The notes below the pieces were generated by a model that saw only the letters and a program-made list of their open reading frames with translations, was not told the origin of the DNA and searched no databases. Below are positions 28,597-63,447 of a DNA stretch of 64,000 nt, piece after piece. The position numbers and the translations under genes are program-made. Each line of letters starts with the position of its first letter. The stretch's first letter is position 1. The DNA comes from Bolinopsis microptera. Lineage: Eukaryota > Ctenophora > Tentaculata > Lobata > Bolinopsidae. The stretch covers positions 16,529,337 through 16,593,336 of the forward strand of contig NC_087080.1 in the NCBI RefSeq assembly GCF_026151205.1. Reading direction: 5' to 3'.

Positions 28597-31500
28597 CATG
28601 TGCTGGTGCAGCAGGGTACTAGGAGTTGATGGCGCGGAAATGACAATTAACTTTGGTAGACACAGCCAATTATGTGAGCTAAAATCTCAATACATGATCA
28701 TTGGTATGGTAACCCTGGTAACTATCAGTGCTCTTGCAATGAAGCGTACAGTGATACCCAACATCTTGACCGAAATTTTTGTCGAATCCCAGTCGATTAT
28801 GAATTTAAACCATAACTAGCTAGTTGATGAGAATCGGGAAGTAAAACGACCGGAACGCAAATAGAAACGTCGGTGGCGTTGAGTGGAATGATGCGACATA
28901 ATGCGACACATTGGTGACATGATGCGACATGATGGGACATGATGGTCGGCAATGACGCGTTGACGCTGCAGCTAGTCATGAAGACACGTCGGTTACAGTT
29001 ACCCTGATACAAATGGGAACTAGCTCATGTTGTGTCACTAGTAGTGTTGTGTCACTGTGTGTTAATGAGTTAACTGTGTCATTAACGTAAGATGAGGCGA
29101 GACACTCAACTTTCTCAAACACTATTCTATATTCAACAATTTGAACAGCTAAATAGATCAATGACGCACTTTCAGTATTTTCTTTGTTTCTTTTTAGCCT
29201 GTCTCTTGGTTTAGTGTTAAAGCTATTGTTTGTTCATCTTAGTGTTATTACTCATTAGAGTGATGCACCTGACATGGAGCTTTTAATTTGGAATTCATCG
29301 GAACCGGCAGCTTTCTGCAGCCTGAGTAGCTACCGACCCAACATAAGAAATATTGTGAGTAAAATATCATGTAAACATAGGAAATATTGTGAGTAAAATA
29401 TCATGTAAACATAGGAAATATTGTGAGTAAAATATCATGTAAAAATAGGAAATATTGTGAGTAAAATATCATGTAAACATAGGAAATATTGTGAGTAAAA
29501 TATCATGTAAACATAGGAAATATTGTGAGTAAAATATCATGTAAACATAGGAAATATTGTGAGTAAAATATCATGTAAACATAGGAAATATTGTTAGTAA
29601 AATGTAAAATTTTAAACCGTCAGGAACGGGATATAAATAATGGAATAGTGAAACTGAATTTGCTAACTAGTAAAGATAAATCGTGCTGTTGTTTAATAAA
29701 CACTTGAACAATCTGTATTATTATATTATACTATATCATTATATTTTATATATTCACATGGTACTTGAGTTTGTTGGATCGCGAGAATAGTATTATACTC
29801 GAGTAGCAGGGAGTAGTTGATATTATACTTTACCTTTGCACATACCTCACACCAGAAATTAACCTGACCAACAGAACTTTTCACTGGAAATAACACGCGA
29901 CCAACATTGTAGGTTTACAACCTACCAGGACGCGCGCCGAGTTGGACTCGTCGACGGTCCTGATATATGGAACAGATATTTTACGAGTATCACCCGTTAA
30001 GACCAACATGTCACGTGACACGTATGACGTCACAAACGGAATATTTGTCTCTTCAACGAGACAGCGTTAGTGTTTCTAATCAGTAAGTCTCATCACGTAT
30101 CCTGTGTAATGTGTCTCCCAATGATACCACCAATACTCCAATAGTTATATACCGGTTATTGAGTGTGCAAGACACATGCTAACTCATGTTAAGTGTGTCC
30201 TAATTAGGACACTTAACTAAAACAGTGCTCTTATACGGTACATGTTACAGGCGTTCTCTTCTAATGTTCCACACTTAATATGGTACATGTTACAGGCGTT
30301 CTCTTCTAATGTTCCACACTTAATATGGTACATGTTACAGGCGTTCTCTTCTAATGTTCCACACTTAATATGGTACATGTTACAGGCGTTCTCTTCTAAT
30401 TTTCCTTTCAAGAGAGCTTGGATCTATGTATATGGCCCACGAAAAGATAGCATGAGGATGCTCTGCCTGCCTCTAGGGTAACCCTGAAAAGATAGCATGA
30501 GGATGCTATGCCTGCCTCTAGGGTAACCCTGAAAAGATAGCATGCTCTGCCTGCCTCTAGGGTAACCCTGAAAAGATAGCATGCTCTGTCTGCCTCTAGG
30601 GTAACCCTGAAAAGATAGCATGAGGATGCTCTGTCTGCCTCTAGGGTAACCCTGAAAAGATAGCATGAGGATGCTCTGCCTGCCTCTAGGGTAACCCTGA
30701 AAAGATAGCATGAGGATGCTCTGCCTGCCTCTAGGGTAACCCTGAAAAGATAGCATGCTCTGCCTGCCTCTAGGGTAACCCTGAAAAGATAGCATGCTCT
30801 GCCTGCCTCTAGGGTAACCCTGAAAAGATAGCATGCTCTGCCTGCCTCTAGGGTAACCCTGAAAAGATAGCATGAGGATGCTCTGTCTGCCTCTAGGGTA
30901 ACCCTGAAAAGATAGCATGAGGATGCTCTGCCTGCCTCTAGGGTAACCCTGAAAAGATAGCATGAGGATGCTCTGCCTGCCTCTAGGGTAACCCTGAAAA
31001 GATAGCATGCTCTGCCTGCCTCTAGGGTAACCCTGAAAAGATAGCATGCTCTGTCTGCCTCTAGGGTAACCCTGAAAAGATAGCATGAGGATGCTCTGTC
31101 TGCCTCTAGGGTAACCCTGAAAAGATAGCATGAGGATGCTCTGTCTGCCTCTAGGGTAACCCTGAAAAGATAGCATGAGGATGCTCTGCCTGCCTCTAGG
31201 GTAACCCTGAAAAGATAGCATGCTCTGCCTGCCTCTAGGGTAACCCTGAAAAGATAGCATGCTCTGCCTGCCTCTAGGGTAACCCTGAAAAGATAGCATG
31301 AGGATGCTCTGTCTGCCTCTAGGGTAACCCTGAAAAGATAGCATGAGGATGCTCTGTCTGCCTCTAGGGTAACCCTGAAAAGATAGCATGAGGATGCTCT
31401 GTCTGCCTCTAGGGTAACCCTGAAAAGATAGCATGAGGATGCTCTGCCTGCCTCTAGGGTAACCCTGAAAAGATAGCATGCTCTGCCTGCCTCTAGGGTA

Positions 31501-34500
31501 ACCCTGAAAAGATAGCATGCTCTGCCTGCCTCTAGGGTAACCCTGAAAAGATAGCATGCTCTGCCTGCCTCTAGGGTAACCCTGAAAAGATAGCATGAGG
31601 ATGCTCTGCCTGCCTCTAGGGTAACCCTGAAAAGATAGCATGCTCTGCCTGCCTCTAGGGTAACCCTGAAAAGATAGCATGCTCTGCCTGCCTCTAGGGT
31701 AACCCTGAAAAGATAGCATGCTCTGCCTGCCTCTAGGGTAACCCTGAAAAGATAGCATGCTCTGCCTGCCTCTAGGGTAACCCTGAAAAGATAGCATGCT
31801 CTGCCTGCCTCTAGGGTAACCCTGAAAAGATAGCATGCTCTGCCTGCCTCTAGGGTAACCCTGAAAAGATAGCATGCTCTGCCTGCCTCTAGGGTAACCC
31901 TGAAAAGATAGCATGCTCTGCCTGCCTCTAGGGTAACCCTGAAAAGATAGCATGCTCTGCCTGCCTCTAGGGTAACCCTGAAAAGATAGCATGCTCTGCC
32001 TGCCTCTAGGGTAACCCTGAAAAGATAGCATGCTCTGCCTGCCTCTAGGGTAACCCTGAAAAGATAGCATGAGGATGCTCTGCCTGCCTCTAGGGTAACC
32101 CTGAAAAGATAGCATGCTCTGCCTGCCTCTAGGGTAACCCTGAAAAGATAGCATGCTCTGCCTGCCTCTAGGGTAACCCTGAAAAGATAGCATGCTCTGC
32201 CTGCCTCTAGGGTAACCCTGAAAAGATAGCATGCTCTGCCTGCCTCTAGGGTAACCCTGAAAAGATAGCATGCTCTGCCTGCCTCTAGGGTAACCCTGAA
32301 AAGATAGCATGCTCTGCCTGCCTCTAGGGTAACCCTGAAACCCTGTGAAAGGAGTTATCTGCAATGTGGAGATATGATGAGTAGACGCTGAAGTGCCTAA
32401 TGGATGATGACCTCATTACCTGATATATTGAGTTAAGACAACGTGAGTGTAGGTCACGTGAGTGTAGGTCACGTGAGTGTAGGTCACTTTGGTCTGGTCC
32501 AGTTCCTCAGGCACGATTAGTGCGATTTGCGAAGTTGACAATAGTGGTGATATGGTTCTCTTCTAATGTCCCACACTTATCATATCATGATTCATGGCTC
32601 ACTCAGTTTATAAGGCATGTTATTTGAAAGTTTCCCATCAGTTAGCTTACTTCTTATGTAACTTCACATCTCCCATCTGTTTAACCTTAAACTTGTTTAT
32701 ATTTGCGGTTACTTAGTTACTGGCCGTGGGATAGCTACATGTTACCTTGGTTACTACTATTTGGTTACTCTACACAGTATTCACTTAGTCTACAAAACCA
32801 GCAGTAAATAATACCAGTTTACTACTATAACTATACGGTGCTGTACATTCGATTAGGATGCTCACTATAACAGTACCTGTGTTGTGTATAATTGGGATAC
32901 ACTGTACAGTATGAGGCTCAAAGTGTCATTGTACAAATCACACGAGGTTCACTACATTTGAAGGTTCGCTACATTTGAAGTTCATTACATTTGAAGGTTC
33001 CCTACATTTGAAGGTTCGCTACATTTGAAGTTCATTACATTTGAAGGTTCCCTACATTTGAAGGTTCCCTACATTTGAAGGTTCCCTACATTTGAAGGTT
33101 CCCTACATTTGAAGGTTCCCTACATTTGAAGGTTCCCTACATTTGAAGGTTCCCTACATTTGAAGGTTCCCTACATTTGAAGGTTCCCTACATTTGAAGG
33201 TTCCCTACATTTGAAGGTTCCCTACATTTGAAGGTTCTTTACATTTGAAGGTTCCCTACATTTGAAGGTTCCCTACATTTGAAGGTTCCCTACATTTGAA
33301 GGTTCCCTACATTTGAAGGTTCCCTACATTTGAAGGTTCCCTACATTTGAAGGTTCACTACATTTGAAGGTTCCCTACATTTGAAGGTTCCCTACATTTG
33401 AAGTTTCTTTACATTTGAAGATTCCCTACATTTGAAGGTTCCCTACATTTGAAGGTTCTACTACCTCTGTTCACTACTGGTTAGTTATTTCCCACACTGT
33501 TGTGATCTGCTCCACTAATTACAGATCTGTACATTTAAAACAATTATAACTTAATAATACACACATGTCTGCTATAACAGTACAATTAAGTTAGCTTTTA
33601 ATGGTCATGATAGTACCACACGACATCCTGGTATCTGGTCTCTTAGAGGCCGGAGGGGGGGGGGGGGGGGGGGCGAGAGAGGGAGTTCACATTTATGTGA
33701 TAGAATAGAAGAAACAAACAGAAGGAAAAAACGGATCAAAATCCGACCTTGCGTTCCTGAAATGGCGAGCCCAAAATTTTAAACAGCTCAAACTTTTTTA
33801 CCAGCCACTCCCTGGAGGCTTAATACTTGATACAGTAGTTCCTGGTCACGCTATTCCATGGACAATTGTCTAGAAAAGTGGTGTATTTGACGCGGTTCTC
33901 GAATATGAGGTTCACAGTTTTAAAAAGTGTGAAAATATTGTTAAAATTACACTTTTCGAAATTCTTAACCTCATAATTGGAGAGAGTGGCCTGCTGTAAT
34001 CTCTGTAATATGCGGAGAGAGCCAAGCAGGTCTGCCTCAGAGATAGAATAATATTGAATCTTAACTTAAGAGAGATATTTTCAGGTAATAATATTTACTT
34101 ATTTAGTTAACTAGATTCATAAAGGTTAGAAAATCCTAATCGAAGCCAATATATTATTCCTCTAATCTAACAAGGATGATGTAGAATTATGAGTTGTAAT
34201 GAGCCTGTTGGCTGCTAATAAACCTAAGTATGACACGCTATTGCACGCTAATAAACCTGGTCACGCACCGAACGGAACAATTTACCCGTCTCCCTGAGTA
34301 ATCTGTAAGGGCGCTGTGCAAGGTGTTTCATTTCATTAGTGCGGCTAATCAACTAACATTTGACGTATTTGCCGTATCTGTGCAGCAGTAGTAGTAGTGC
34401 AGTTCCAGGATTACATGCACCTTACACCGTCTTATCTTCATTTTACTTATACTTATCTTAACCTAATTAGCTAATTAATCGCGAATGCAAATAATCTGCG

Positions 34501-36667
34501 AACTTGAAAAGGACAGCCTTGAAGATCACAGCCGACAGTCTGGTAATAGGGGGAGGGGGGGGGGGGGGGGGGGGGGTGTTGGCATTCTAGTAATAGGGGG
34601 GGGGATCAGGGATGTGAGTAGCACGTGGTGATTAGTTCAAGGTCACGTTCTATTTTCTATATTAGTTATGCTATTCTATTTTCCTTCTGTAATCAAATCT
34701 TAATAGCTGGTCTTCAAAGCTTCCTGTATGATTTTACCAAAGTTAAAATAAGTGCCTCCGATTGAAGTTTAGTTATTTAAAAGTTTAAACCTTGATAAAG
34801 GCCTGCTTCTTACATCGTGCAGACTGCAACAGTCATAATGTCGTCAATGCATTTAATTACACGCGGACATGTGTTGTTATGTTTTGAGGTGGTCCTTTTT
34901 AACTCTAAGAAACCTTATACTCTAACCCAGACAACACAACCAGATGTGAGCATGAAGTTAGCATGAAGTGTCGTGAGCGGAGTGTAGACTCTCAGTAGCT
35001 AACAGCTCTAACAGCTACCTACCCTCAGTAGCTAACAGCTACCTTTCCCACAATATGTCACAGAGTGTTGATTGCCTCATGTTTTACTATTTCTCGTCAT
35101 TTCTTTTTTGAATTCTTTGAGAGCTCCCAGCTTCTCGTCTCTATTTTGAAAGTTTAAAGAGGAACTTTATTTTAACTCCATCAGTGAACCTTGTTGAGCT
35201 TCCGATACAAGTATATTAGTACAGTAAAATAGTTAATATATCGACATTATCTATTTATATTATAAAACTTTACAACTCAGCAACTTTACACGTTGTCCGG
35301 TATTTAGGAGACTGGCACGTAGCCAGAAGATATAGGTTAGTGCCCAGATGTGGCGCTTAGTGGAATTAATTACAGTCCATCATTAGGTAGCCAGTCAGGG
35401 GGAGCCAGTCAGGGGTAGCCAGTCACTAGTCAGGGGTGCCAGTCAGGGGTAGCCAGTCAGGGGTAGGTAGTCAGGGGTAGCCAGTCAGGGGTAGCCAGTC
35501 AGGGGTAGCCAGTCAGGGGTAGCCAGTCAGGGGTAGCCAGTCAGGGGTAGGTAGTCAGGGGTAGCCAGTCAGAGGGTGCCAGTCAGGGGTAGCCAGTCAG
35601 GAGTAGCCAGTCAGGGGTAGCCAGTCAATAGGTAGCCAGTCAGGGTTAGCCAGTCAGGGTTAGCCAGTCAGGGGTAGCCAGTCAGGGCCGGGGTAGCCAG
35701 TCAGGGGTAACCATTCAGGGTTAGCCAGTCAGGGGTAGCCAGTCAGGGGTAGGTAGTCAGGGGTGCCAGTCAGGGGTAGGTAGTCAGGGGTAGCCAGTCA
35801 GGGGTAGCCAGTCAGGGGTAGCCAGTCAGGGGTAGCCAGTCAGGGGTAGCCAGTCAGGGGTAGCCAGTCAGGGGTAGCCAGTCAGGGGTAGGTAGTCAGG
35901 GGTAGCCAGTCAGAGGGTGCCAGTCAGGGGTAGCCAGTCAGGGGTAGCCAGTCAGGGGTAGCCAGTCAATAGGTAGCCAGTCAGGGTTAGCCAGTCAGGG
36001 TTAGCCAGTCAGGGGTAGCCAGTCAGGGGTAGCCAGTCAGGGGTAGCCAGTCAGGGTTAGCCAGTCAGGGGTAGCCAGTCAGGGGTAGGTAGTCAGGGGT
36101 GCCAGTCAGGGGTAGGTAGTCAGGGGTAGGTAGTCAGGGGTAGCCAGTCAGGGGTAGCCAGTCAGGGGTAGCCAGTCAGGGGTAGCCAGTCAGGGGTAGG
36201 CAGTCAGGGGTAGCCAGTCAGGGGTAGCCAGTCAGGGGTAGGCAGTCAGAGGTAGCCAGTCAGGGGTAGCCAGTCAGAGGTAGCCAGTCAGGGGTAGCCA
36301 GTCAGGGGTAGCCAGTCAATAGGTAGCCAGTCAGGGGTAGCCAGTCAGGGGTAGGCAGTCAGGGGGTGCCATTTACCAACTGTCTTTATCTTACGTGTTG
36401 CCTGTCATATTTTTAGTGTGATAATATCTCTTGTTAATGTTGGTGAAAACCCCTGATTGATAGAAATCATAGAAATGTCAGCTGGCTTCAGATCTCGGTT
36501 AGGGCATCATGTGAGCACGCTACGTTTAGTGTTCCTCCACTATTGCATTCCAGCTTGTACAGTCTGACGGTACGTGCTGTTTAATGTTCCTCCACTATTG
36601 CTCTATTGCATTCCAGCTTGTACAGTCTGACGACAATCTGTTTTACGTCTGCTCAACATTTTTGTGA
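28597..36667 (+). CDS. Tentative four-exon gene, product unknown (3' part)
   Basis: Exons proposed: 28597-28708, 29259-29354, 32857-32946 and 36617-36667 (stop TGA). Each has an AG acceptor and, for the first three, a GT donor (GTAACC, GTGAGT, GTTCAC). The three junctions are all phase 0 and the joined frame of about 115 residues is open. The peptides (for example WNSSEPAAFCSLSSYRPNIR in exon 2) look like protein, but I do not recognise a family and see no membrane segment. Earlier exons may exist, since the first begins one base before an ATG. Exon 2 and exon 3 each run straight into a minisatellite built from their own donor region, and the last acceptor is tandemly duplicated upstream. This model rests on phase and motif agreement only; introns of 3.5-3.7 kb could hide more exons. 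Confidence 0.35.
28709..29258. other. Putative intron, no gene seen
   Basis: Contains degenerate GATGCGACAT repeats near 28886-28945. No ORF of note. Confidence 0.3.
29340..29603 (+). repeat. 34-bp minisatellite built on an exon end and 5' splice site, about 8 copies
   Basis: Each unit contains AACATAGGAAATATT followed by GTGAGTAAAATATC. The first copy is the end of candidate exon 29259-29354 (AACATAAGAAATATT, then GTGAGT), so every unit repeats 15 exonic bases plus the donor. A final unit has GTTAGT. Confidence 0.9.
29604..30236. other. Unassigned sequence
   Basis: AT-rich with no supported gene. A CACGTGACACGT palindrome-rich stretch lies near 30010-30030. Confidence 0.3.
30237..30403. 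repeat. 45-bp repeat, 3.7 copies
   Basis: The unit begins GGTACATGTTACAGGCGTTC and ends CACACTTAATAT. A diverged piece (GGTTCTCTTCTAATGTCCCA) recurs at about 32554-32573, on the far side of the next array, so the two may have been adjacent before the array expanded. Confidence 0.9.
30430..32342. repeat. 39/45-bp minisatellite, about 47 copies
   Basis: The unit is AAAAGATAGCATG, optionally AGGATG, then CTCTGCCTGCCTCTAGGGTA and ACCCTG. Both lengths are multiples of three, so one minus-strand frame stays open for 646 codons (repeat FQGYPRGRQSMLS or FQGYPRGRQSILMLS). Its only non-repeat start is a TTG at 32364, and there is no sign of a real gene around it. Confidence 0.95.
32343..32856. other. 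Unassigned sequence
   Basis: Holds three copies of a 15-bp unit (GTCACGTGAGTGTAG) at 32440-32487. Otherwise AT-rich and without a supported gene. Confidence 0.4.
32947..33459 (+). repeat. 17-bp minisatellite starting at a candidate donor site, about 30 copies
   Basis: The unit is AAGGTTCCCTACATTTG. The left edge reads CACGAG/GTTCACTACATTTG, where GAG is the end of candidate exon 32857-32946, so most units repeat AAG/GTTC as a potential donor. Confidence 0.9.
33460..35383. other. Unassigned sequence with two long G tracts
   Basis: G runs at 33655-33673 and 34555-34576. Near 34990-35045 TAGCTAACAGCT repeats. No ORF with coding character. Confidence 0.4.
35384..36372. repeat. 14-bp minisatellite (AGCCAGTCAGGGGT), about 68 copies
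   Basis: Variants include GTAGGTAGTC, CAATAGGTAGCC and CAGAGGGTGCC. The same variant order recurs in blocks (compare about 35525-35780 with 35885-36110), showing a segmental duplication of about 360 bp. Confidence 0.95.
36520..36637 (+). repeat. Tandem duplication of a 3' splice site and the first 16 exon bases
   Basis: TGTTCCTCCACTATTGCATT, then CCAG, then CTTGTACAGTCTGACG occurs twice. The first copy (acceptor at 36553) is followed by GTACGT; the second (acceptor at 36616) opens the candidate terminal exon. The second copy has a 7-bp internal repeat of CTATTG. Confidence 0.8.
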
Positions 36668-37352
36668 TCATTAAAACTTAATGTCCACTAGTGATTTAAC
36701 TTTCATTACAAGATTAGTTTATAGTATCTCCGGTAGAGTTTGTTAAGTACTCCTAAGTTACCACCGCAATGTAGCATCATCATCACCACATTCTGAGAAT
36801 ATCCGGCTTTTTCGTTTGATGGTTGTTACAGGATCTTGACAGTGGTGTAACAAAGGGCGGCAGTGCTTTATTTTTCAACACATTTTTGTAAAAACCTTGC
36901 TCGAAAATGGTTCGTACCATTGTTCGCATTTTACAGTTTGAACTTGACATTAGTTGACAAAAAACCAGTAGCTTTTCCAATGATAAAAAAGAGACGATAA
37001 TACTCATTATGCTTATTCAGCTAGTATGCACTTTGAAGGCAAATGACAATGGAAAGAATGCCGCTGTATATATTATGTATAGGTCATTCTGTCCATTCCG
37101 TCTGTATTCATTGTAGGAATTTCTTTCAAAACGCCACCGCTAAACAGATCTGCAGACCTCAAAATGACACGATTTCTCGATGTGAAAGCAACTTTTCACT
37201 GCTAATAGCTTCTTTCTAGCTCGTGAATGGAATTGGTTAATTAGTTGTCTAAACTGAATGAAGACGGGTTTTTAAAATTTGTAAATTCCAGACTTCATTG
37301 TGCAACTTCCTTTTCATGATTAAGATACGACATTTCATAAAAGGATAGAAAA
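36668..37352. other. Intergenic sequence upstream of the thioredoxin gene
   Basis: Includes a hAT-like terminal motif CAGTGGTGTAACAAAGGG (about 36838). A similar CAGTGGTGTTACAAAGGG lies near 45734. A promoter for the downstream gene is expected here but no TATA box stands out. Confidence 0.35.
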
Positions 37353-38615
37353 ATGCTGCTGTGTGTTGCTCAAGTCATTGGAGAAAAGGTTGTGTAAATG
37401 TTTAGTTAACTCATTCTTCTTAACTTTAATACTTTTAAACGCCGATTACCGTCCAGAATCAAGAATGGGACAAAAGATTGTGTGGAATAAATGTAACGCG
37501 CTAAACAATTTTCATATGATAACGCATTCATCCGCTCAATTTGTGTAATGTAAATGAATGCGCGCGCACGCCGGCCATGAATGTGATGAAGTAACATCGA
37601 ATCAGCAACCATGATTGTTTGAATTAATTAATAATTAATTAATAATTAATCTTCCAACATCGATGCTGTGAAGGCATGGTGGTCTTCCGTACATCTTACC
37701 ATGACATACCTTAGAAATTCCGGCATTTCAGACTAGACGTTACTGTTCTGACTTTTTATCGTATCTTTAGTTTCATGATATGACACGATACAGGGGTGTA
37801 GGCAATATTGTTATCAGCATCCCAATTAACCGTTCTAATTTCAGACGGATTTTGAAGACGCTTTGGAACGAGGGCACGAGAAACTGCTAGTTTTCGTTTT
37901 TTCAGCGAGATGGTGCGGACCTTGCAGAGTTATTAGCCCCAAAGTTCAGGTACTTTAATAGGAAATCAAAGCTCGGATCTGCATGCTTTTTAATAAATTA
38001 TGGATTTATAGTTATGATTATTGATGGAATTTTGATAAGCCCCAGCATTGACCGTCAGCTTCCTACACCCCTGCCGTCTAACATCTTTCAACACCAATAA
38101 CATAGAAACAAATTATTTTTCTAAACAATCTCAATAAAGGATGACATTAAACATGAATAATTTAACAAGTAATTCCTTATCCAGGATATCATTAAAGAAA
38201 ACCCTGACGTAGTGTTCTACCAGATCAATGTAGATGATAACATTGTAAGTAGTAGTAAGTAGTAAGTTACAGCTCAACATATATTTTTCTAACTTATATA
38301 AATCTCATTATAAAACTGTAATATTGAAATTGTATTAATCAAATATACACTCTCTTTCAGACCACATCTCAAGCATGCGGCATTACATGTGTTCCCACCT
38401 TCCAGTTCTTTAGGCGCTGCACTAAGGTAAACATTACACACTTTTACCGATCAAGAATTGCTTTGTAATAATCTAAATTTGTACAATACCAACTTTCGGT
38501 CAGATGCTTTCCCTTTCACTTTCCCTTTCACTTTCCCTTTCAGATTGAAGAGTTCTCTGGAGCAAACGAACAGAAAATCCGAGATTTTCTTACGAAACAC
38601 AAGAAATCCAGCTGA
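37353..38615 (+). CDS. TXN: Thioredoxin (cytosolic type), five exons
   Basis: Exons 37353-37388, 37845-37949, 38185-38244, 38361-38426 and 38544-38615 join in phase 0 to a 112-residue protein, the usual thioredoxin length. It reduces protein disulfides with electrons from thioredoxin reductase. Exon 2 carries the active site WCGPC (residues 30-34) after FSAR; exon 3 has NPDVVFYQINVDD; exon 4 has CGITCVPTFQFF with the conserved cis-Pro after Val; exon 5 has IEEFSGANEQK and ends KHKKSS. No signal or mitochondrial peptide is visible. Exon 1 (MLLCVAQVIGEK) is short with a weak GTTGTG donor, but frame and homology support it. Oddities: the buried Asp that precedes FSA in most thioredoxins is Val here, and RRC replaces a Lys/Gly-rich turn. 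The exon 3 donor region repeats GTAAGT three times, and the exon 5 acceptor follows a 12-bp CCCTTTCACTTT repeat. Confidence 0.93.
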
Positions 38616-38998
38616 CTTCTTTCGCGTAGTTTACTTCTAATTTAAAATATCAGTGAGAATTGAGTGTACTCCTGAGACAATCCCACAGACATTAAAAAAC
38701 TTCTTTTAGTTTTTAGCTTTCATAAAGAATTGATTACTTTTAGAAGAGTAACAGATTTGAAATGATGCAGAATTTTGTTAGCTATTACAGTATACGCTAC
38801 TCAAGGCAGCAGTAGTTTGCATAATTTCTTTGTCAATCATGGATCTTTAGGAAACATTAGAATAGAAAATTGTGTGATTTTATCCTGTTCTGTTGAGATT
38901 TGAAGGTAAAAGCCTTGGTTGAGGAAAAATTTATATCTGTCATTCGATTTAGATTAAGAAAATGGCCATTAATTTTTTTCTGTTTGAATTGAATTCTA

Positions 38999-39004
38999 AA
39001 TAAA
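38999..39004 (+). terminator. Poly(A) signal of the thioredoxin gene
   Basis: AATAAA 384 bp after the stop, in AT-rich 3' sequence. A second AATAAA lies near 39276. Confidence 0.5.
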
Positions 39005-39350: not shown

Positions 39351-42300
39351 TCAGTTCTTGGTTGGTTTTGACTCAGGCTCGACAATCCTCACTCCTTTCT
39401 TACCACTGTCAGGTGTTTTCTGAACACCACCATTCCTCTCCTCGCGTGACAACCCTCGCTTCGTTGTTAGGCCGTTTTTCTGTTTATTTTCAGTCACGGT
39501 TCCCTCTCCCTCCTTTGTAGGGGTTCCTTCTCCCTTCTTTGTAGGGGTTCCTTCTCCCTCCTTTTTAGGGGTTCCCTCCGGCTTATCTCCGGTGGAATCT
39601 ATTTGGACCACGGTCTTTTGTTCGACCTAGGAACTAATTGGTCAGCATTAGGTAAATGAGAAAATAAATAATAATAATTGGAAAGAATGAAGCGGTCAAA
39701 AAACGTGCTTCTGAATGATCGAGCAAAATATTGTCAGGGAATTTAAAGCATTTTGAGGATTAGTGGTAGCATGATCCTGAGGAGGAGAGTTTTTCAATGT
39801 AATAGCTGAATAATGCGTTTATTATTATGTAATATGCGTTTATGCGATAATTCAAGTGCTAAATGAGGGCTATTGGTAAGGTAAAAGAGTATAAACTAGT
39901 AAACTTGGTTACTTTACAAATTATATTACTAGGCGTGGGTGCTGGGGCGGGCGCTGGGCGGTTTAAATTACCATTCCTTTTTCAAAAAGATATAGTGGAA
40001 CCTCTGCAAAGGAACGTAATATCATTTATTCTTATTTTATCGAAAGTAGCAGGAAGAGCATTACACCCCTGCTACTGAAGTAGCAAGAGCATTACACCCC
40101 TACTACTGAAGTAGCAAGAGCATTACACCCCTGCTACTGAAGTAGCAAGAGCATTACACCCCTGCTACTGAAGTAGCAAGAGCATTACACCCCTGCTACT
40201 GAAGTAGCAAGAGCATTACACCCCTGCTACTGAAGTAGCAAGAGCATTACACCCCTGCTACTGAAGTAACAAGAGAATTACTACTGGAGTACATGGCAAT
40301 TTTCAATTTTTGTTCTAGGAAACATAAACTTTCATAAGCCTAAAAATTATACATGGAAAAATGGATTTCTATCATTAAATTTAAAGTGGTCATATAACGC
40401 TAAATAATGCACCATATGATGCCTTATGATGGCTGCAAGGAGTCAACAATTAAAAGCAGTTTGTTAAATGGCAGAAGGCCGGTAGGTTTCCTTCCAAATA
40501 CCTTATCATTATCTACGACCTCCACATCGGGTAGCTCTGTAGGGAATATGCCGCCAGCACGATGGTGGGTGGTGGATCTGGTACTCTTCATTCTGCTAGC
40601 TGGAGTTGAGCTCTTCTTGTAGCACGACTGGTAGGATCTGCATCTGAGGGGTTATCTCAGTTTTATCTAGTCTCTACACAGCCCTCGTAAATTAGAAGGG
40701 GCTCAAAATGAAGGTATAGTTACCCCAAAAGAAGGGCCTTCAATAATGTAGGTTTTTAGAATTGAGATTTAATACAGCTTGTTGCAACGTACTGTGTCAG
40801 GTGCCTACCTTTCAGTTTTCTCCTTTTTCGCATGTGACAGAAGATTGCTCACTTTTTCCAGCACGTCCTTTTTCTGCGAAAATGTAAGAAAAAATGATTA
40901 ATTAAGTATTGCCTACAATAAATTACAATAAAGCATATTATTGACTCAGCCTCCCTCCCCCCTCCCCAATTATTTAGTTTTACCTCGTTGAAATGTTTCC
41001 GATACCATTTCAGATAGGAATCATCCAGTCTTCTACACTCTTTTGATAGGTCGTCTGTCATTCGGTTGTTGTTACTGAGTGAAATTCAAAATTAAATTAC
41101 AGAAATCTAGTCAATGATGCGAAAGTTTCAAAAAATGTAATTCAAATTAAGTGAGCAACTTAATCAAATCAAAGCATTCGATTTACAATTGATTAAAATT
41201 GCATGAAATATTTTTCAGATTACGAACTTGATGAGCTAACTAACCTAGTGAGCTAACTAACCTTATGAGCTAACTAACCTTTAAATGAGCTAACTAACCT
41301 TATGAGCTAACTAACCTTATGAGCTAACTAACCTTATGAGCTAACTAACCTTATGAGCTAACTAGCCTTATGAGCTAACAAACCTTATGAGCTAACTAAC
41401 CTTATGAGCTGACTAACCTTATGAGCTAACTAACCTTATGAGCTAACTAACCTTATGAGCTGACTAACCTTATGAGCTAACTAACCTTATGAGCTAACTA
41501 ACCTTATGAGCTAACTAACCTTATGAGCTAACTAACCTTATGAGCTAACTAACCTTATGAGCTAACTAACCTTATGAGCTAACTAACCTTATGAGCTAAC
41601 TAACCTTATGAGCTAACTAATCTTATGAGCTAACTAACCTTTAAATGAGCTAACTAACCTTATGAGCTAACTAACCTTATGAGCTAACTAACCTTATGAG
41701 CTAACTAACCTTATGAGCTAACTAACCTTATGAGCTAACTAACCTTATGAGCTAACTAACCTTATGAGCTAACTAACCTTATGAGCTAACTAACCTTATG
41801 AGCTAACTAACCTTATGAGCCACTGAGCGGTTTCTCTGACTGCCATTATCTTGGGACCAGTCATCTCCTTGTCAAACCTTATGGATCTTCTTGCGTTCAC
41901 TTTGGGTAGTAGTAGCACCTGTGTCTAATTAGTCAGGATTTAGAAAGAGATTTTAGTTAAACATTATTCCACTGTAAGTATGTATAACAGTTAACTGACA
42001 ACTCCGCTGTAAGTATGTATAACAGTTAACTGACAACTCCGCTGTAAGTATGTATAACAGTTAACTGACAACTCCGCTGTAAGTAAGTATAACAGTTAAC
42101 TGACAACTCCGCTGTAAGTAAGTATAACAGTTAACTGACAACTCCGCTGTAAGTAAGTATAACAGTTAACTGACAACTCTGCTGTAAGTAAATATAACAG
42201 TTAACTGACAACTCTGCTGTAAGTAAGTATAACAGTTAACTGACAACTCCACTGTAAGTATGTATAACAGTTAACTGACAACTCCGCTGAAAGTATGTAT

Positions 42301-43284
42301 AACAGTTAACTGACAACTCGCCTCCGCTGTAAGTAAGTATAACAGTTAACTGACAACTCCGCTGTAAGTAAGTATAACGGTTAACTGACAACTCCGCTGT
42401 AAGTATGTATAACGGTTAACTGACAACTCCGCTGTAAGTAAGTATAACGGTTAACTGACAACTCCGCTGTAAGTAAGTATAACGGTTAACTGACAACTCC
42501 GCTGTAAGTAAGTATAACGGTTAACTGACAACTCCGCTGTAAGTAAGTATAACGGTTTACTGACAACTCCGCTGTAAGTATGTATAATAGTTAACTGACA
42601 ACTCCGCTGTAAGTATGTATAACAGTTAACTGACAACTCCGCTGTAAGTAAGTATAACAGTTAACTGACAACTCCGCTGTAAGTAAGTATAACAGTTAAC
42701 TGACAACTCCGCTGTAAGTAAGTATAACGGTTAACTGACAACTCCGCTGTAAGTAAGTATAACGGTTAACTGACAACTCCGCTGTAAGTAAGTATAACAG
42801 TTAACTGACAACTCCACTGTAAGTAAGTATAACGGTTAACTGACAACTCCGCTGTAAGTAAGTATAACGGTTAACTGACAACTCCGCTGTAAGTAAGTAT
42901 AACGGTTAACTTACAACTCCGCTGTAAATAACGGTTTACTGACAACTCCGCTGTAAGTATGTATAACAGTTAACTGACAACTCCGCTGTAAGTAAGTATA
43001 ACAGTTAACTGACAACTCCGCTGTAAGTAAGTATAACAGTTAACTGACAACTCCGCTGTAAGTAAGTATAACAGTTAACTGACAACTCCGCTGTAAGTAA
43101 GTATAACAGTTAACTGACAACTCCGCTGTAAGTAAGTATAACATGACACGTGTCTAACCTCGCCTGTTGACTGAAACTTGCTGGATATGATGCTGTAAGC
43201 GAAGCTCTTGTCCGAGGAGGGGTACATACTGCTACTTGTCGTACCGGCTGTTTCCGGGCGGCTGAAGTTGTAATCCGGCTGCAT
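39351..43284 (-). CDS. Orphan six-exon gene: charged, lysine-rich protein of about 257 aa
   Basis: Exons in transcript order: 43284-43159, 41918-41812, 41074-40984, 40873-40809, 40610-40502 and 39626-39351. Phases agree at every junction and the joined frame is open. It starts at MQPDYNFSRP, the first ATG after an in-frame stop. Exon 2 (VLLLPKVNARRSIRFDKEMT...) and exons 3-4 (CRRLDDSYLKWYRKHFNE, VSNLLSHAKKEKTE) look like amphipathic helices. Exon 6 is disordered with EGEGTPTKK-type repeats. There is no signal peptide, membrane segment or motif I recognise. Weakest point: the exon 4 to 5 junction. The exon 5 acceptor (GAAGAG) is poor, and a 21-nt exon 4 ending at AAA/GTGAGC with exon 5 starting after CTACCAG also keeps frame. 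Introns 1, 2 and 5 are largely minisatellite. Confidence 0.7.
40042..40271. repeat. 31-bp minisatellite, about 7 copies
   Basis: The unit is AGAGCATTACACCCCTGCTA then CTGAAGTAGCA. It lies in intron 5 of the minus-strand orphan gene; on that strand each unit reads CTACTTCAG, acceptor-like, but it does not touch an exon. Confidence 0.93.
41226..41820 (-). repeat. 17-bp minisatellite made of an exon end plus its 5' splice site, about 35 copies
   Basis: On the minus strand the unit is CTCATAAG/GTTAGTTAG. The copy at 41812 is the true exon 2 end of the orphan gene (TGGCTCATAAG, then GTTAGT), so the array begins with 9 coding bases and runs into the intron, offering dozens of identical donors. Variants such as CTAGCC and TAATC are rare. 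A TTTAAATGAGC variant appears twice, marking a block duplication. Confidence 0.95.
41968..43140. repeat. 35-bp minisatellite, about 33 copies
   Basis: The unit is CTGTAAGTAAGTATAAC then AGTTAACTGACAACTCCG, with AAGTATG and AACGG variants. It fills intron 1 of the minus-strand orphan gene, starting about 18 bp inside the donor. On the transcribed strand each unit reads TATACTTACTTACAG/CGG, acceptor-like. Confidence 0.95.
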
Positions 43285-46802: not shown

Positions 46803-48605
46803 AACCGGTACAATGCGCTCCTGACGGGGTGCAATGTTCTCCTGACGGGGTGCAATGTTCTCCTGATGGGGTGCAATGCACTCCTGATGGGGTGCAATGT
46901 TCTCCTGATGGGGTGCAATGTTCTCCTGATGGGGTACAATGCACTTCTGACGGGGTGCAATGTTCTCCTGATGGGGTACGATGTTCTCCTGAACCGGTGC
47001 AATGCACTCCTGATGGGGTGCAATGCACTTCTGACGGGGTGCAATGTTCTCCTGATGGGGTACGATGTTCTCCTGAACCGGTGCAATGTTCTCCTGATGG
47101 GGTTCAATGTTCTCCTGATGGGGTACGATGTTCTCCTGATGAGGTACAATGTTCTCCTGAACCGGTGCAATGTTCTCCTGATGGGGTTCAATGTTCTCCT
47201 GATGGGGTGCAATGTTCTCCTGATGGGGTTCAATGTTCTCCTGATGGGGTACGATGTTCTCCTGAACCGGTGCAATGTTCTCCTGACGGGGTGCAATGTT
47301 CTCCTGAACCGGTGCAATGTTCTCCTGATGGGGTGCAATGTTCTCCTGATGGGGTTCAATGTTCTCCTGATGGGGTGCAATGTTCTCCTGATGGGGTTCA
47401 ATGTTCTCCTGATGGGGTGCAATGTTCTCCTGATGGGGTGCAATGTTCTCCTGATGGGGTGCAATGTTCTCCTGATGGGGTACGATGTTCTCCTGATGGG
47501 GTACGATGTTCTCCTGAACCGGTGCAATGTTCTCCTGACGGGGTGCAATGTTCTCCTGAACCGGTGCAATGTTCTCCTGAACCGGTGCAATGTTCTCCTG
47601 ACGGGGTGCAATGTTCTCCTGATGGGGTACAATGTTCTCCTGATGGGGTACAATGTTCTCCTGATGGGGTTCAATGTTCTCCTGATGGGGTACAATGTTC
47701 TCCTGACGGGCTGCAATGTTCTCCTGATGGGGTTCAATGTTCTCCTGATGGGGTGCAATGCGCTCCTGGCGGGGTGCAATGTTCTCCTGACGGGGTACAA
47801 TGTTCTCCTGACGGGGTGCAATGTTCTCCTGATGGGGTACAATGTTCTCCTGACGGGGTGCAATGTTCTCCTGATGGGGTGCAATGTTCTCCTGAACCGG
47901 TGCAATGTTCTCCTGACGGGGTGCAATGTTCTCCTGAACCGGTGCAATGTTCTCCTGATGGGGTTCAATGTTCTCCTGATGGGGTACGATGTTCTCCTGA
48001 TGGGGTACAATGTTCTCCTGATGGGGTACAATGTTCTCCTGATGGGGTACAATGTTCTCCTGATGGGGTACAATGTTCTCCTGACGGGGTGCAATGTTCT
48101 CCTGATGGGGTACAATGTTCTCCTGATGGGGTACAATGTTCTCCTGATGGGGTACAATGTTCTCCTGATGGGGTACAATGTTCTCCTGACGGGGTGCAAT
48201 GTTCTCCTGATGGGGTACAATGTTCTCCTGATGGGGTACAATGTTCTCCTGATGGGGTACAATGTTCTCCTGATGGGGTACAATGTTCTCCTGACGGGGT
48301 GCAATGTTCTCCTGATGGGTTGCAATGTTCTCCTGATGGGGTGCAATGTTCTCCTGATGGGGTACAATGTTCTCCTGATGGGGTACAATGTTCTCCTGAT
48401 GGGGTACAATGTTCTCCTGATGGGGTACAATGTTCTCCTGATGGGGTACAATGTTCTCCTGATGGGGTACAATGTTCTCCTGATGGGGTACAATGTTCTC
48501 CTGATGGGGTACAATGTTCTCCTGACGGGGTGCAATGTTCTCCTGATGGGTTGCAATGTTCTCCTGATGGGGTGCAATGTTCTCCTGATGGGGTACAATG
48601 TTCTA
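46803..48605. repeat. 21-bp minisatellite, about 86 copies
   Basis: The unit is TGCAATGTTCTCCTGATGGG plus G, with GAACCGG, TACAATG and TTCAATG variants. With length 21 and no stops, at least two plus frames and one minus frame are open for over 600 codons (46757-48638). Simultaneous openness in several frames shows this is not evidence of a gene. Confidence 0.95.
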
Positions 48606-49447: not shown

Positions 49448-50425
49448 CTTATATTCCTGCTTTGTGTTTCGTAATTAGTATTTCTATACCATAAATATTC
49501 CTCTATTTCGTGACAAACTGCTGGCGTCCCTTTTGTTTATTAACTCTAATATTTCTAATATCTTTTGTCGATGTTTGACACAAGCTTGAGAAACACACTT
49601 TAGTGAATTTTCCATTAGTTCAAACGTTAAATTCAAAATTGTCGATTTGTGTAAATTTTATAAAGAATTTCTGAGTTCTGAAGGCATATAGTTACACTAT
49701 ATTATATATAGTTACACTTAGAATCAATTATTGCACAGATTGCTCAATATGTAGCATTTCTTAAGAAATCTTTTCTTTACAACGGATTCAGAAGTTCTTT
49801 CGTTTGTTTCGATTAGCGCTTATTTGGAGGTAGCTCTAGTATGGCAGCGGGCTCGTGCTGGGTAGCTCAGATATCTGTATATATAATGTGACGCGTGGCG
49901 ACACACTACAATTGTTTTTATTAGTACTTGAAACGGCCCCGATTTCTCGTCTGCCACGTGCTTACATCGTCCCAACTTCACTGTTCATTCTTTCAGTGGT
50001 TCAGCTTATTCAAAACCACTAAGTTAACCGGAAACAAATGTGTAGGCACGGCATTCGTAAAACTGTGCTTTAAAATAGGGGGGGGGGGGGGGGGGGGTTG
50101 GTGGGGGGGGGGGGGGGTGTGGATAAGTAGGTTTGGGATTACCCAGTTACGTGTTAATTGCTATTATAGATAAAAAATATAACACTGTCATTATTAAGTC
50201 CATTCAAACATTTTCTTGAAATAATCGTCAAATGAGAATCAATAACAGTGCTTACTTGAAAAGGTGTCCTCCTAGTCGTTGGAGTGGGACCTTTCTAATG
50301 TAGTATCCTGTCTGTTGCTCTGCTAACTTCCATCGTGAGCCTGTTGACACCTGTGAATAGAGCGACATCCTCAAGAACACCAGTGAGGCTTGCCTCTAGA
50401 CCTGTTGCTTTGAGATCCAGCGCAG

Positions 50426-50526
50426 AAGATAGTGCTCACCACATGAAGATAGTACTCACCACATGAAGATAGTGCTCATCACATGAATATAGTGCTCACC
50501 ACATGAAGATAGTACTCACCACATGA
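50426..50526 (-). repeat. 20-bp minisatellite with donor-like sites, 5 copies
   Basis: On the minus strand each unit reads CATGTG/GTGAGTACTATCTT or GTGAGC. The right edge coincides with the end of the candidate minus-strand exon at 50520-50603. Confidence 0.85.
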
Positions 50527-58464: not shown

Positions 58465-58487
58465 GTGACCAAGGAAAAAGTACACCA

Positions 58488-58493
58488 AATAAA
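58488..58493 (+). terminator. Poly(A) signal of GIPC
   Basis: AATAAA 24 bp after the GIPC stop codon; another AATAAA is near 58599. Confidence 0.6.
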
Positions 58494-58659
58494 CTTGAAA
58501 ATGTATTGGATGATGAAACATGATGGATCATGTAAAACACCAACATCATTCTACCGGAGAACGAGCTTCAAGCCTGCTTTTACGTTTTAAGGCTTGGAAT
58601 AAATATTGAATATATCCCACTCGTTAAATAAGAACTGCTATGTAACATGACAGACAGTT

Positions 58660-58908
58660 AGTTGTGCGATCACGTGCTCGATTGTGTGATCACGTGCCCG
58701 ATTGTGTGATCACGTGCCCGATTGTGTGATCACGTGCCCGATTGTGTGATCACGTGCCCGATTGTGTGATCACGTGCCCGATTGTGTGATCACGTGCCCG
58801 ATTGTGTGATCACGTGCCCGATTGTGTGATCACGTGCCCGATTGTGTGATCACGTGCCCGATTGTGTGATCACGTGCCCGATTGTGTGATCACGTGCCCG
58901 ATTGACGC
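58660..58908. repeat. 20-bp minisatellite (GATTGTGTGATCACGTGCCC), about 12 copies
   Basis: Each unit contains TGATCA and CACGTG. It lies between the converging 3' ends of GIPC and ALG8. Confidence 0.95.
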
Positions 58909-59306
58909 TGCTTAGTTATTTATTGATGTGCTATGTATTGGAATGTATCAGGCAATTTTTAGACCACCTACTTATTAAAAGCTTTTTATGAACGAAATAA
59001 AAGAGCGAATATAATTAATGGCTTAAATAAATAGCTAGAAACCCACTACAATAAAATTAACAACATTGATCTGATAAAATATTGAAACGTCAATTAACAA
59101 TTTGTAAGCCGGCAACTAATAATTAGCACAAAGAAAATGTATCGTCGTAAAAATTAAACTGTCAATAGATTTCGATCTGGACATAAATGCAAAGTGTTAT
59201 GGAGATGATTTAAAAAGAAGGATCAGGAATCAGGATGGTTAAATACTAAAACTTATCTGCAAAATACGTTAAATACCCTGTATACACAAGCCAATTAAGA
59301 AAATTC
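58909..59306. other. Intergenic, 3' flank of ALG8
   Basis: AT-rich with no ORF of note. Confidence 0.5.
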
Positions 59307-61866
59307 TCAAACTGAGGCTAAAAGTTTATAATAGCTATACAATGTACCGCCGGAACAATACGCCGAGTAAAGTAAGAGTGGTAAAAACTCTAAACGAGGT
59401 AGGAATATTGGCAGAATTACTTCGGCCACAGCGAAGTGACCTACAAGTCCATACAAGTACAACTTTTCAAACATGTCCAGCTTAAATTCTGGATATAGTT
59501 TGCGGAGAGTCACAAACATGAAACTGTGTATCATGAGCAGAATAACAATTTTCACTAAGAACTCTTGAGCTTCAAACAGCAAGGGAAAAAGCGAGTAAGT
59601 TCCAAGAAACGACAAAAAGAGAAAGTCCTTGCCACTCTGAAGATTTGAAAAGACAAGCAAAGCGTAGGGTATCAGTATGACGAGGATAGCTTTCTCGTGG
59701 ACGTGGTACCCCAGGAAGAAGGAAGTGAAGGCAGCAGCTGTGACACTTCTCAAGAAGAGTAGCGGAGAGGGATGTTTGAAGAGCTTCACTAGAGCTGGAG
59801 TCAGTGTTACCAGGGTAAGTGTAGCACAGTGTGCAGGAGACACGTTCGGTAAAATCAAGAAGTCCGCTTGTTGCACCAGACCAGACATGAGCGGGTGGAC
59901 GCCTGATTTTGGGAGAATACCGAGGATTTGAAATGCCTTACTGAGGCTGATGTCCAGTAGGTTGTAAAGTGACCAGAAGTTAGGGGCCCAGTATGCGTGA
60001 CAAAGTCCACGATGCACAGGAAACAGTCGGGACAAGATCTGGGGCAGATGGTTGAGGAATGGACCAAAAGAAGCGCCAAAAACCGCAATAACGCAACCGC
60101 CCAATTTCACTAGTCCCATCAGATCCAGTCCTAGAAACTTGTTGTTGTGAAACATGTGGGCTCTGAGCATATACACGAAATAAACAGGAGCCACATACAG
60201 GTAAATGTGTTTGAGGTTGAGAAGTAGTGAGAAGTAGAAACCTCCTAGGACCATATCTCCCTCTGCTACACTAACCAGTGACAGGAGGAATATCCCGGAC
60301 AGGAAGCCGTTATACTGGAAGTGGATGTGATCCACTATAAGCAGCCCCGCACACCCCAGGTAACACACTGTCAGCATCATTTTCACATTCCTGTCACTGA
60401 ACTTGCCACCACTAACAGTATGCACGTACCTGGAAGCCTTGGAACAGGCAAAACAGAGCACAATGTCGGATACTATCACACTTAGTCTCTGAAACAGAAG
60501 GGTGAGATGATTGAAGTACGGAGCCTCTGAGATTACCAACATGTTGGGATCGAACAGACCGGCTACCAGGGATAGGATGTACTGGAACCATGCAAATAAG
60601 GGCGGGTAGTCCAGAGTCCACTGAGAGGTCTTTTCATAATACCACTGAAAAATAATGTCCGTAAAAACTAAAACAGTTATGTCCGTAAAAACTAAAACAG
60701 TTATGTCCGTAAAAACTAATACAGTAATTTTGGCTTGGAGAATTTCTCTTAGACAGGACCCTAAAATGTTTCAATACTTTCAACACTACTATATAACAAA
60801 TAATTTGAGAACTGAAGAAGACGTTGTTACGTGGAATGATTATTTCAATTCAATAAAGTTTCTAGCCTAAAGTTTGCTGCTTCAATTTGTTCGCAAGTTA
60901 AGAGTCTAAAGAGAAATTCTCCAAGAGAAATCAAGTTCAAATGCGACTCATAAATATAGCCCCCTTGAACTAGTAATTTTGGCTTTCAAAAATTATGCAA
61001 AAAACTTCAACAGTGTTAGCTGTTCCAACCAAACTCGGAAAAACGAAAGAATGTAGTATATATAAAATAATGGACATTTTTTGTACATTTGATAGGAAAT
61101 ATGACATTGTCGCGTCACGTGATCATTAATTCGGTGCTGTCTTCGAGCCGCGCGCAAATGCTGAAACACAGCGAAAATCTGTTCGCGCGTCATTGAAGCG
61201 GTTGCGGAATTACTTGTTGCTGTGCAGGGTCGGTTGCCCATTTTGCGGGTTGACACGAAGTGTCAACCTGCAAAATGTCAAGTCTTGACGTTGGGGAAGG
61301 AGAGGAAGACAAATTAGAGGAAGAGGGACGATCAATATCTAGTGGTTGCAACAACAGCGGAGCCTAAGTAAAGCAACCTAAAGTCACCGGAACTTGGAAG
61401 GGAAAATGTTGTTATACCAATCTACTTCGAGGAGTCCTGTCTTTCCATGGACGATAGAAATAGGAGGGCATATATCTATATCTACTGCGAGTAAAAACAT
61501 TTAAGGAAAGGGCATACTGAAATTAACAACAAAATGTGCAATATTAGTTATATCCGCGGTTCCCATGTAAGAAGGGCCAAAAGTGGAGAAGGCGGGCATC
61601 GATCCCGCTACCTCCCGAATGCGAATCGGGCGCTCTACCATTTGAGCTACTTCCCCTTGGCGTAATTCGAAATGTGACAATCAATATTCAAATACATACT
61701 ACTGTTAAAACTAAAAGTCTCGGTCAGTCACCTGATCGGTTGGCAGGGAGTTAGTGATAGCCAACCAATTTCTGTGCACCTCAAAATCAGTAGAATGGTA
61801 GGAGTGAAACAAGAATAGCTTCAAGAAAGCTGTCACGAAATAGAGCTCTGCCCAAGTGAAGTCCAT
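59307..61866 (-). CDS. ALG8: ALG8, dolichyl-P-Glc:Glc1Man9GlcNAc2-PP-dolichol alpha-1,3-glucosyltransferase
   Basis: Two exons, 61866-61732 and 60644-59307, join in phase 0 to 490 aa (human about 526). The enzyme adds the second glucose to the lipid-linked oligosaccharide in the ER membrane, in the N-glycosylation pathway. Exon 1 has a membrane segment and [15 protein letters not shown] (about 24-38), the luminal loop with the acidic residue conserved in ALG6/ALG8. Exon 2 begins [20 protein letters not shown], then [54 protein letters not shown] and several hydrophobic helices, all ALG8 signatures. It ends LLASV. Intron 1 holds a tRNA gene on the same strand and a 24-bp triplication next to the acceptor. 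It converges on GIPC. Confidence 0.97.
60655..60725. repeat. 24-bp repeat, 3 copies, beside the ALG8 exon 2 acceptor
   Basis: The unit is TCCGTAAAAACTAAAACAGT then TATG. The array starts about 10 bp from the intron's AG on the minus strand. Confidence 0.9.
61238..61275. other. Hairpin inverted repeat in ALG8 intron 1
   Basis: ATTTTGCGGGTTGACAC and GTGTCAACCTGCAAAAT pair across a 3-base loop (GAA) with a single G-T mismatch. Confidence 0.8.
61584..61656 (-). tRNA. tRNA-Ala (anticodon CGC)
   Basis: 73 nt fold into a full cloverleaf: acceptor GGGGAAG with CTTCTCC, D stem GCTC/GAGC, anticodon stem CCCGA/TCGGG with loop TTCGCAT (CGC, reads GCG), 5-base variable loop, and T stem GCGGG/CCCGC with loop ATCGATG. 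G3 pairs with U70, the alanine identity element. A TTTT Pol III terminator follows four bases after the end. No intron. It lies in ALG8 intron 1, same strand. Confidence 0.95.
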
Positions 61867-62890
61867 AATATTGAGCCTATCAAAAAGTTAAATGGTTAAC
61901 CATTAATATCTTATAGAACGGTGAATAGCAAACACATCTGTCATGGACTCAAAATCAATTCATGACAAAAATTAACAAAAATCAGAAACTGGTTAAAAAA
62001 TAATCTATAATAAAAACTCATTTTCAACTCGTTATTACTGAAAGTCAAATACGTAGAAGATTTTCTAAAATTACACCAAACTTATCAAAATTTAGTTTCG
62101 GATAGAAATTGTGATTGGAAATCACATTCTGAATTTAAAAGAAGTGATCTCTATAAATCGCAAAATTCTTCAATTAGACATAACAGCAAAAAAAAGATAT
62201 TTCTAATTCTGCAAATTAAGCAGTCAGTCGAATAGAAATCGAGAAATTATTTATATCTCATTATTTTTTTCCGCGATTCCTCTTGAAGAAAACATAACAT
62301 ATTTCCGTAACATATTATATTGCTGAAATATGTTAAAAATGCTCTTACTTAAAATAAGCACATCACATTACATGCTTGTGAGGTAATCACCCACAATCAG
62401 ACTGAACCTGCGTTACAGGGAAAGTTATAGAATTTAAATAAAAGTGTGGGAAAGTTTTGAAATTTTGAATTTACGAAAATCTCGGAAGAAACGTTAATTA
62501 AGATTGTGTTATTAATCATTAATCAACCGTACTTGTTTCTAACAAGAAAAACTACCTGGATTATAAGAAAGTGCTCAGTATTTAAATAAATACTATCAAT
62601 ACAAAATCCATTTACCGAGTAGTTCGGAAAGAGTATTACAAAAATAATCTGACTCATGAAGTTTATGTAATCGATATATTTTTCTTATTAATATTAACAT
62701 AAATGATTAATTGAAAAAAATTGAAATCTTGCATTTGATAGACCAGCCTGGCGAAGAATGCATCTGTTATTCAAAAATAAGTATACAAATCAAGGGTAAT
62801 GATACATGCCATGCCTTAACGTCCAGTGAATATTTGGCAATAAATCAAGGTGATTAATTAATTAGTTAGTAAATAACATAATCCCAGATG
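61867..62890. other. Intergenic AT-rich sequence between ALG8 and the next minus-strand gene
   Basis: No ORF or repeat of note. The ALG8 promoter should lie near 61870-62000; no motif stands out. Confidence 0.4.
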
Positions 62891-63447
62891 TCAACTCTCG
62901 TGTTCGTGTTTCATATCATACCAGTTTCTGAATATCCACTGAGAGCAGAACACAGCACAAGGCAGCAGGACACAGAGCCAGGCTATTAGAGTGTACGCTT
63001 GTGCGGGTACTCCGTTGTGCACGCGCTCGTAGTACACACTGTAGGACACGTGGGCCGCGTGCTTTATTGCACGTCTGTAATCGTGCGCTGTTACCTGCAC
63101 ACAAACACCCGTCAGATAATCATTATAAGATATAAGATACAATAAAATATTATAAGATATAAATACAGCGGCATAACACTCACAGTAACGAACATAGTAG
63201 CGCTCCTAGGCACGAACAGTAACACATAACACTCACAGTAACGAACATAGTAGCGCTCCTAGGCACGAACAGTAACACACAACACTCACAGTAACGAACA
63301 TAGTAGCGCTCCTAGGCACGAACTCCTCTTTTTCAATGTCCAGTAACTTCCTATTAGGAAGCTCCTCTGATAAGGTTTGAGAGAAGGTGATGGTAAAGGT
63401 AAAGGGCTGTGTTGCTGGGTAACTTACTTTAAACTCGTACACTTCAC
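62891..63447 (-). CDS. Single-pass membrane protein, last two exons (5' part outside window or not found)
   Basis: Exons 63447-63290 and 63094-62891 join in phase 0; the first begins in phase 1 after a TTAACCAG acceptor, so earlier exons are missing. The visible 119 residues are a soluble region (EVYEFKVSYPATQPFTFTIT, SQTLSEELPNRKLLDIEKEE), then VTAHDYRRAIKHAAHVSYSV, one hydrophobic segment (about AYTLIAWLCVLLPCAVFCSQ) and a short charged tail KHEHES. This suggests a type I membrane protein with a luminal or extracellular beta-rich domain. I do not recognise the family. The donor of the first exon is triplicated as a 53-bp repeat; only the first copy keeps frame. Confidence 0.65.
63170..63320 (-). 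repeat. 53-bp repeat of exon end plus 5' splice site, 3 copies
   Basis: On the minus strand each copy contains TTCGTGCCTAGGAGCGCTAC then TATGTTCGTTACT/GTGAGTGTT. The junction positions are 63290, 63237 and 63184, exactly 53 bp apart. The first is the coding exon end; the other two lie in the intron with about 33 exonic bases each. Confidence 0.95.

Follow-up and report, generated by a model that had tools for sequence, protein, structure and literature searches.

Minisatellites spanning exon-intron boundaries at several unrelated genes of the ctenophore Bolinopsis microptera

Results

We analysed a 64-kb stretch of the Bolinopsis microptera genome, hereafter the window, which lies 0.84 Mb from one end of contig C9 and carries 52 non-redundant tandem arrays with a period of at least 7 bp, together covering 44% of its length. 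By comparison, 84 arrays occupied 5.3% of 177.6 kb at other loci of the same genome. Minisatellites appear to be very unevenly spread in this genome, so that several of the 'mirage' minisatellites described below, whose repeat unit crosses an exon-intron boundary, would gather in repeat-rich genes. Among the genes of the window is ALG8, seen as one large exon at 59310-60650 on the minus strand, the best named relative of which is from Mnemiopsis leidyi (79% identity). A 24-bp array of 3 copies (60655-60725, minus strand) lies directly upstream of the acceptor of this exon, with the junction itself outside the array; three units are present here, compared with two similar stretches in the translated relative P0001, a nameless protein that is 93% identical. 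The window also contains a 21-bp array of 86 units at 46807-48604 in which four frames, distributed over both strands, are open from end to end, so that open frames across this array are no evidence for a gene.

The one mirage at which splicing could be checked against a protein lies in the gene for the uncharacterized protein LOC134820892, whose coding span of six exons runs from 39351 to 43284 on the minus strand. The protein assembled from the six exons at 39.35-43.28 kb is B. microptera LOC134820892 isoform X2 (NCBI protein, P0121). A 17-bp minisatellite of ~34 copies occupies 41231-41820 (minus strand), its first copy beginning 9 bases upstream of the donor AAG|GTTAGT, with the exon end at 41812; the exon ends in ...GCTCATAAG, the intron starts with GTTAGTTA and the repeat unit is GCTCATAAGGTTAGTTA. 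Because P0121 reads ...AQWLISNNNRMTDD... across this junction, the first copy must be the donor in this gene; any later copy, if used, would cause a frameshift. The homologue P0122 has the identical exon join. Most of intron 1 of the same gene is filled by a 35-bp array (41968-43143, minus strand), the unit of which contains the acceptor-like TACTTACTTACAG and which spans no junction.

Two further arrays in the window take in a donor. A 53-bp minisatellite of 2.9 copies (63172-63323, minus strand) has a unit of 33-34 exonic and 19-20 intronic bases around ACT|GTGAGT near 63290, and belongs to a gene whose last two exons lie at 62891-63447 (minus strand) and whose putative first exon is outside the window. 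The exon end at this array is predicted from reading frames: two open exons join in phase, the second one following GTGTGCAG at 63094; a protein search returned two partial relatives only, covering 37% and 26% of the query. On the plus strand, a 34-bp minisatellite of 7.8 copies (29340-29603) starts 15 bases before a putative donor ATT|GTGAGT after 29354, where the exon is an open frame only. The earlier note on this DNA had described arrays of this kind at three unrelated genes, and all three were confirmed, with 15, 9 and 33-34 exonic bases inside the 34-, 17- and 53-bp arrays, respectively; as it had also stated, the three units have no sequence in common except the donor.

Minisatellites are so dense in the window that some could overlap donors by coincidence. 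When the window's own arrays were relocated at random (5000 placements over the whole window, with exon overlap allowed up to one unit), 0.40 spanned donors were expected against 3 of 15 observed (P 0.007), three or more being spanned in 0.7% of the trials and two or more in 5.8%, and none of 13 acceptors was spanned against 0.34 expected. The 15 donors and 13 acceptors were placed by homology and reading frames, some of them one base off with no effect on the count, and the list omits genes in the first 28 kb of the window and some others. Without the unproven 34-bp donor, two donors were spanned (P 0.058), and the fair P lies between these two values because the 34-bp donor entered the list through its array. 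While the high array coverage of the window and this marginal second value agree with coincidence, the relocation result for all three donors and the occurrence of exon-end arrays also at genes on contigs C1 and C2 (see below) argue against it, and we regard coincidence as a distinctly improbable explanation.

Among the additional junction-like repeats reported in the window, the duplicated donor in GIPC was not recovered: the best self-match at the four GIPC donors placed had a score of 7. The other secondary cases are weak. Three copies of GTAAGT do follow the end of a thioredoxin exon at 38245 (38238-38266, plus strand; spacing 10 and 7 bp), but with a period of 7-10 bp their self-match is weak (score 9). 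At 36616, where a duplicated acceptor had been proposed, a 25-bp exact direct repeat (36545-36632, plus strand) does copy an acceptor-like CAG and the 16 bases after it, with copies at 36545 and 36608, 63 bp apart, but the exon there is putative. The donor-adjacent arrays at 32946 and 50520 are likewise present, the second as a 20-bp array with GTGAGT in its unit (50425-50526, minus strand), but the exons that they adjoin are putative.

Beyond the window, we examined 25 arrays of donor words, namely 8 AGGTAAGT clusters on C1, 4 arrays from a single-word list and 3 on C2 (15 together), and 10 listed AGGTGAGT clusters. A start at an exon end was accepted in 9 of the 25, by homology or by an open frame. 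Three of these loci gave sushi exons in Pfam, L063 (E 7.1e-7), L054 (E 0.0038) and, weakly, L069 (E 0.043, an unrelated family scoring 0.038); the RPC1 exon of L057 aligned to its last residue, and the dynein heavy chain match of L055 covered residues 17-129 of the 176 in its open exon and stopped short of the exon end. Open exons at L065, L071, L072 and L077 were accepted by eye alone. L072 presumably resembles an exon of DPH2; Pfam and PDB searches with it returned no match. For the other 16 of the 25 arrays, an exon end was not demonstrable in the flanks inspected: L059, L070, L073 and L074 are possible exon ends, and no exon was seen in the flanks of the remaining 12, the array start of L064 lying outside the stretch examined. 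With these exon-end arrays on C1 and C2, the recurrence of junction-spanning minisatellites at unrelated genes extends beyond the window. As a separate observation, the dynein heavy chain exon of L055 (L055:84-611) also contains an in-frame tandem duplication of ~57 residues, recognised by eye.

Around L054 and L063, a 20-kb region picked for its two cases, so that its richness is descriptive and not a test, contains two further sushi exons (Pfam E 2e-10 and 1.2e-10) whose ends are copied by arrays, one of these arrays being diverged and beginning ~20 bases past the donor. The same region has a donor array at an exon that by eye is leucine-rich-repeat-like, for which Pfam gave no match. An array at an acceptor was found at L068:1167-1802, where an 83-bp unit is present in 7.6 copies and the frame, as read through the array, is continued by the last copy alone. 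Junction-spanning arrays occur at both 5' and 3' boundaries, with many donors and this one acceptor case. Several introns at L055, L063 and L068 share a family of 21-bp arrays (AGTTACCATAGTTACACTACT and variants).

We compared the positions of the junctions within the units. Among 13 cases at exon ends, units had an intronic part of 3 to ~23 bases and an exonic part of 0 to 58, the units of L055 and L077 being taken by eye because the script gave double the period. The intronic part was ~26 and ~38 bases in two later cases and 0, 24 and 34 in possible cases, and a rule that duplications end shortly into the intron, which held in the 13 cases, was broken by these values.

Across the genome, pairs of AGGTAAGT with starts at most 42 bp apart numbered 1201 (536 + 665) against 19 (10 + 9) for the reversed word, whereas single occurrences numbered 10758 (5220 + 5538) against 7965 (3981 + 3984), a 1.35-fold excess. 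Pairs of AGGTGAGT came to 1056 (559 + 497) against 230 (102 + 128), with single occurrences of 8474 (4120 + 4354) against 7650 (3925 + 3725), or 1.11-fold. The acceptor word TTTTCAGG gave 314 pairs (147 + 167) against 118 (48 + 70), many of those listed being one dispersed sequence. All these pair matches count copies and not independent arrays. Counted as clusters on C1, which is complete for four of the five words and for AGGTGAGT covers 23.0 of 26.2 Mb, AGGTAAGT formed 8 clusters, of which 5 were multi-copy (at least three copies) and two belong to a single satellite, and AGGTGAGT at least 10 (8 multi-copy), compared with 1 and 3 clusters (0 and 3 multi-copy, neighbours at 7.91 Mb merged) for the respective reversed words; TTTTCAGG formed 12 clusters, of which 1 was multi-copy. 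The donor words on C1 total at least 13 multi-copy clusters and at least 18 overall against 3 and 4 for the reversed words, an excess of about fourfold in small numbers. As this exceeds the 1.11- and 1.35-fold excess of single copies, it favours some bias to donors. The exact-spacing pattern GTAAGT-N11-GTAAGT had 329 matches against 180 reversed, and one of four inspected places (L001) starts at an exon-like end. Two further repeats were noticed in the word searches. A 32-bp satellite containing AGGTAAGT occurs with a similar upstream flank at C1:36576-37703 and C1:761375-762150 (L052 and L053), two distant sites, so that satellite and flank may move as a unit, and, among the matches listed for TTTTCAGG, TTTTCAGGACACATTTGTTGTTTAAATTTTCAGG and close variants lie at many scattered sites on several contigs, probably as a dispersed repeat.

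Repeat units from loci not picked for repeats reached a donor score of at least 6.5 in 11 of 83 cases, compared with 1 of 83 when reversed and 6.35 when shuffled, and an acceptor score of at least 6 in 8 of 83, compared with 6 reversed and 6.75 shuffled. In the window, 8 of 48 units were donor-like (4 reversed, 3.95 shuffled) and 10 of 48 acceptor-like (5 reversed, 5.1 shuffled), the two kinds being alike there. For an estimate blind to repeats, we took 33 introns from myosin-head and kinase searches (25 + 8, score of at least 7, with lower-scoring or unresolved pairs left out); the kinase search yielded few because many of its best matches cover the domain in one open frame. None of the 33 had an array across its donor or acceptor, which points to a low general rate and is compatible with a true rate of up to ~9%, and arrays of score 50 or more took up 575 of their 16,552 bases. 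The exact words AG|GTRAGT occurred at 1 of the 33 donors, and one tenth of the genome contained five accepted exon-end clusters of these words with a period of at most 42 bp. Should donors of other sequence follow the same pattern, junction arrays may be on the order of a thousand genome-wide, an extrapolation with a wide error.

Discussion

Arrays with a unit across an exon-intron boundary have been described in amphioxus as mirage minisatellites, a parallel that the earlier note had drawn and that proved right, the anatomy being the same (PMC3087553, PMC3902484). Amphioxus mirages are described in the genes for Adh3, globins, troponin C and PGBD5; their units measure 10-160 bp, and they lie at donors as well as at acceptors. 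They vary in copy number from one haplotype to another and also somatically, and they reportedly leave splicing undisturbed (PMC3087553, PMC3902484). The Bolinopsis arrays have the defining property of a mirage, a repeat unit that spans the exon-intron boundary, as in the amphioxus cases. They differ from the latter in belonging to another phylum, in being found, largely at donors, in many genes of a single genome, and in reaching up to dozens of copies; copy-number variation is a feature of the amphioxus mirages, whereas the Bolinopsis arrays are known from one assembly. No report of ctenophore mirages was among the PMC matches listed on ctenophore minisatellites, introns and splice sites, and, as far as our search reached, the phylum and the apparent breadth of mirages are new relative to the literature located.

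What makes a donor the site of such an array? The earlier note had proposed that the junction itself seeds the duplication, for example by template switching or R-loop repair. On such a view, damage linked to transcription or splicing at the 5' splice site (an R-loop, a nick or template switching) would duplicate the DNA there. In its favour, tandem clusters are enriched in donor words, with a pair excess over the reversed words far above the single-copy excess; the donor scores of units from loci not picked for repeats against their reversed counterparts and the short intronic parts of the 13 exon-end units point the same way. However, the pair counts count copies and shrink by C1 clusters to about fourfold in small numbers, shuffled units reach the donor score in 6.35 of 83 cases instead of the 1 found for reversed units, and in the window the acceptor-like excess equals the donor-like one. 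Moreover, the breakpoint pattern did not hold in the later and possible cases, most donor-word arrays (16 of 25) have no demonstrable exon end beside them, one array sits at an acceptor, and the repeat-blind introns had no junction array at all. An active role of the donor junction as seed is, in our judgement, unlikely. Slightly more doubtful still is its far-reaching form, in which working 5' splice sites would be hot spots for short tandem duplication, splicing or RNA-DNA hybrids would start breaks that end shortly into the intron, and about a thousand donors would carry arrays genome-wide.

The arrays might instead be remnants of intron birth, in which an exonic AGGT segment was duplicated in tandem to give new introns, the arrays forming the intron bodies. 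Two papers lend the idea some substance, as AGGT tandem duplication has been proposed, and in part demonstrated, to generate introns (PMC3443670), and splice sites of dual use are enriched in introns within tandem repeats of human genes (PMC10809524). Intron gain by AGGT duplication and the Bolinopsis arrays both copy splice-site sequence in tandem, but the Bolinopsis introns outrun the array in the cases checked. Unique intron sequence lies beyond the array in the 17-bp, 53-bp and L063 cases, and since the introns run beyond the arrays, intron birth, which we hold to be highly improbable, is not the explanation; in none of these three did both splice sites come from the duplicated segment. 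With the dual-specific sites of human UBC and VCX3A, the Bolinopsis repeats share units that carry splice sites, L077 and L066 having ACAG followed by GT or GGT. Dual use is a feature of the human sites, whereas the Bolinopsis repeats are known from their sequence.

Taking these observations together, we consider it probable that the mirages are minisatellites born in the usual way at places where splicing tolerates them, possibly with a bias to donors in addition. A tandem duplication, mostly of 17-91 bp, would take in the 5' splice site and the last exon bases, and the array would then expand into the intron. The first copy, with its full exon context, would be used as the donor, as P0121 shows for one gene and as we infer elsewhere, and the later copies would lie inside the intron and be spliced out. 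With the first copy in use and the later ones removed, such arrays would be near-neutral and persist, while duplications within exons would mostly be eliminated. An acceptor duplication would put a decoy ahead of the real site and would be less tolerated and mostly eliminated, a lower tolerance that fits the rarity of acceptor arrays. Pure tolerance, however, predicts that arrays are no commoner at donors than in intron interiors, and the roughly fourfold count of donor words over reversed words on C1 counts against it. A mutational bias to donors, through exon-end composition, open chromatin or R-loops, may add to tolerance, and selection could yield the same donor picture.

Even if the arrays arise in this ordinary way, mirages would be widespread in a ctenophore genome, and their duplicated donors would offer ample natural material for following how the spliceosome chooses among identical sites. 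Junction arrays at many genes also raise the question of whether mutations concentrate at splice sites; if the donor excess holds annotation-wide, RNA splicing would be linked to a class of DNA mutation, in a study animal far from amphioxus.

Two of the sampled loci showed other features, both recognised by eye. On the 3' side of the kinase domain at L035 (L035:2881-3200), an exon-like end, acceptor-like stretches and a short segment resembling an exon are present in a nested duplication, and L067:2019-3839 is a single 1.8-kb open frame that is multicopper oxidase-like.
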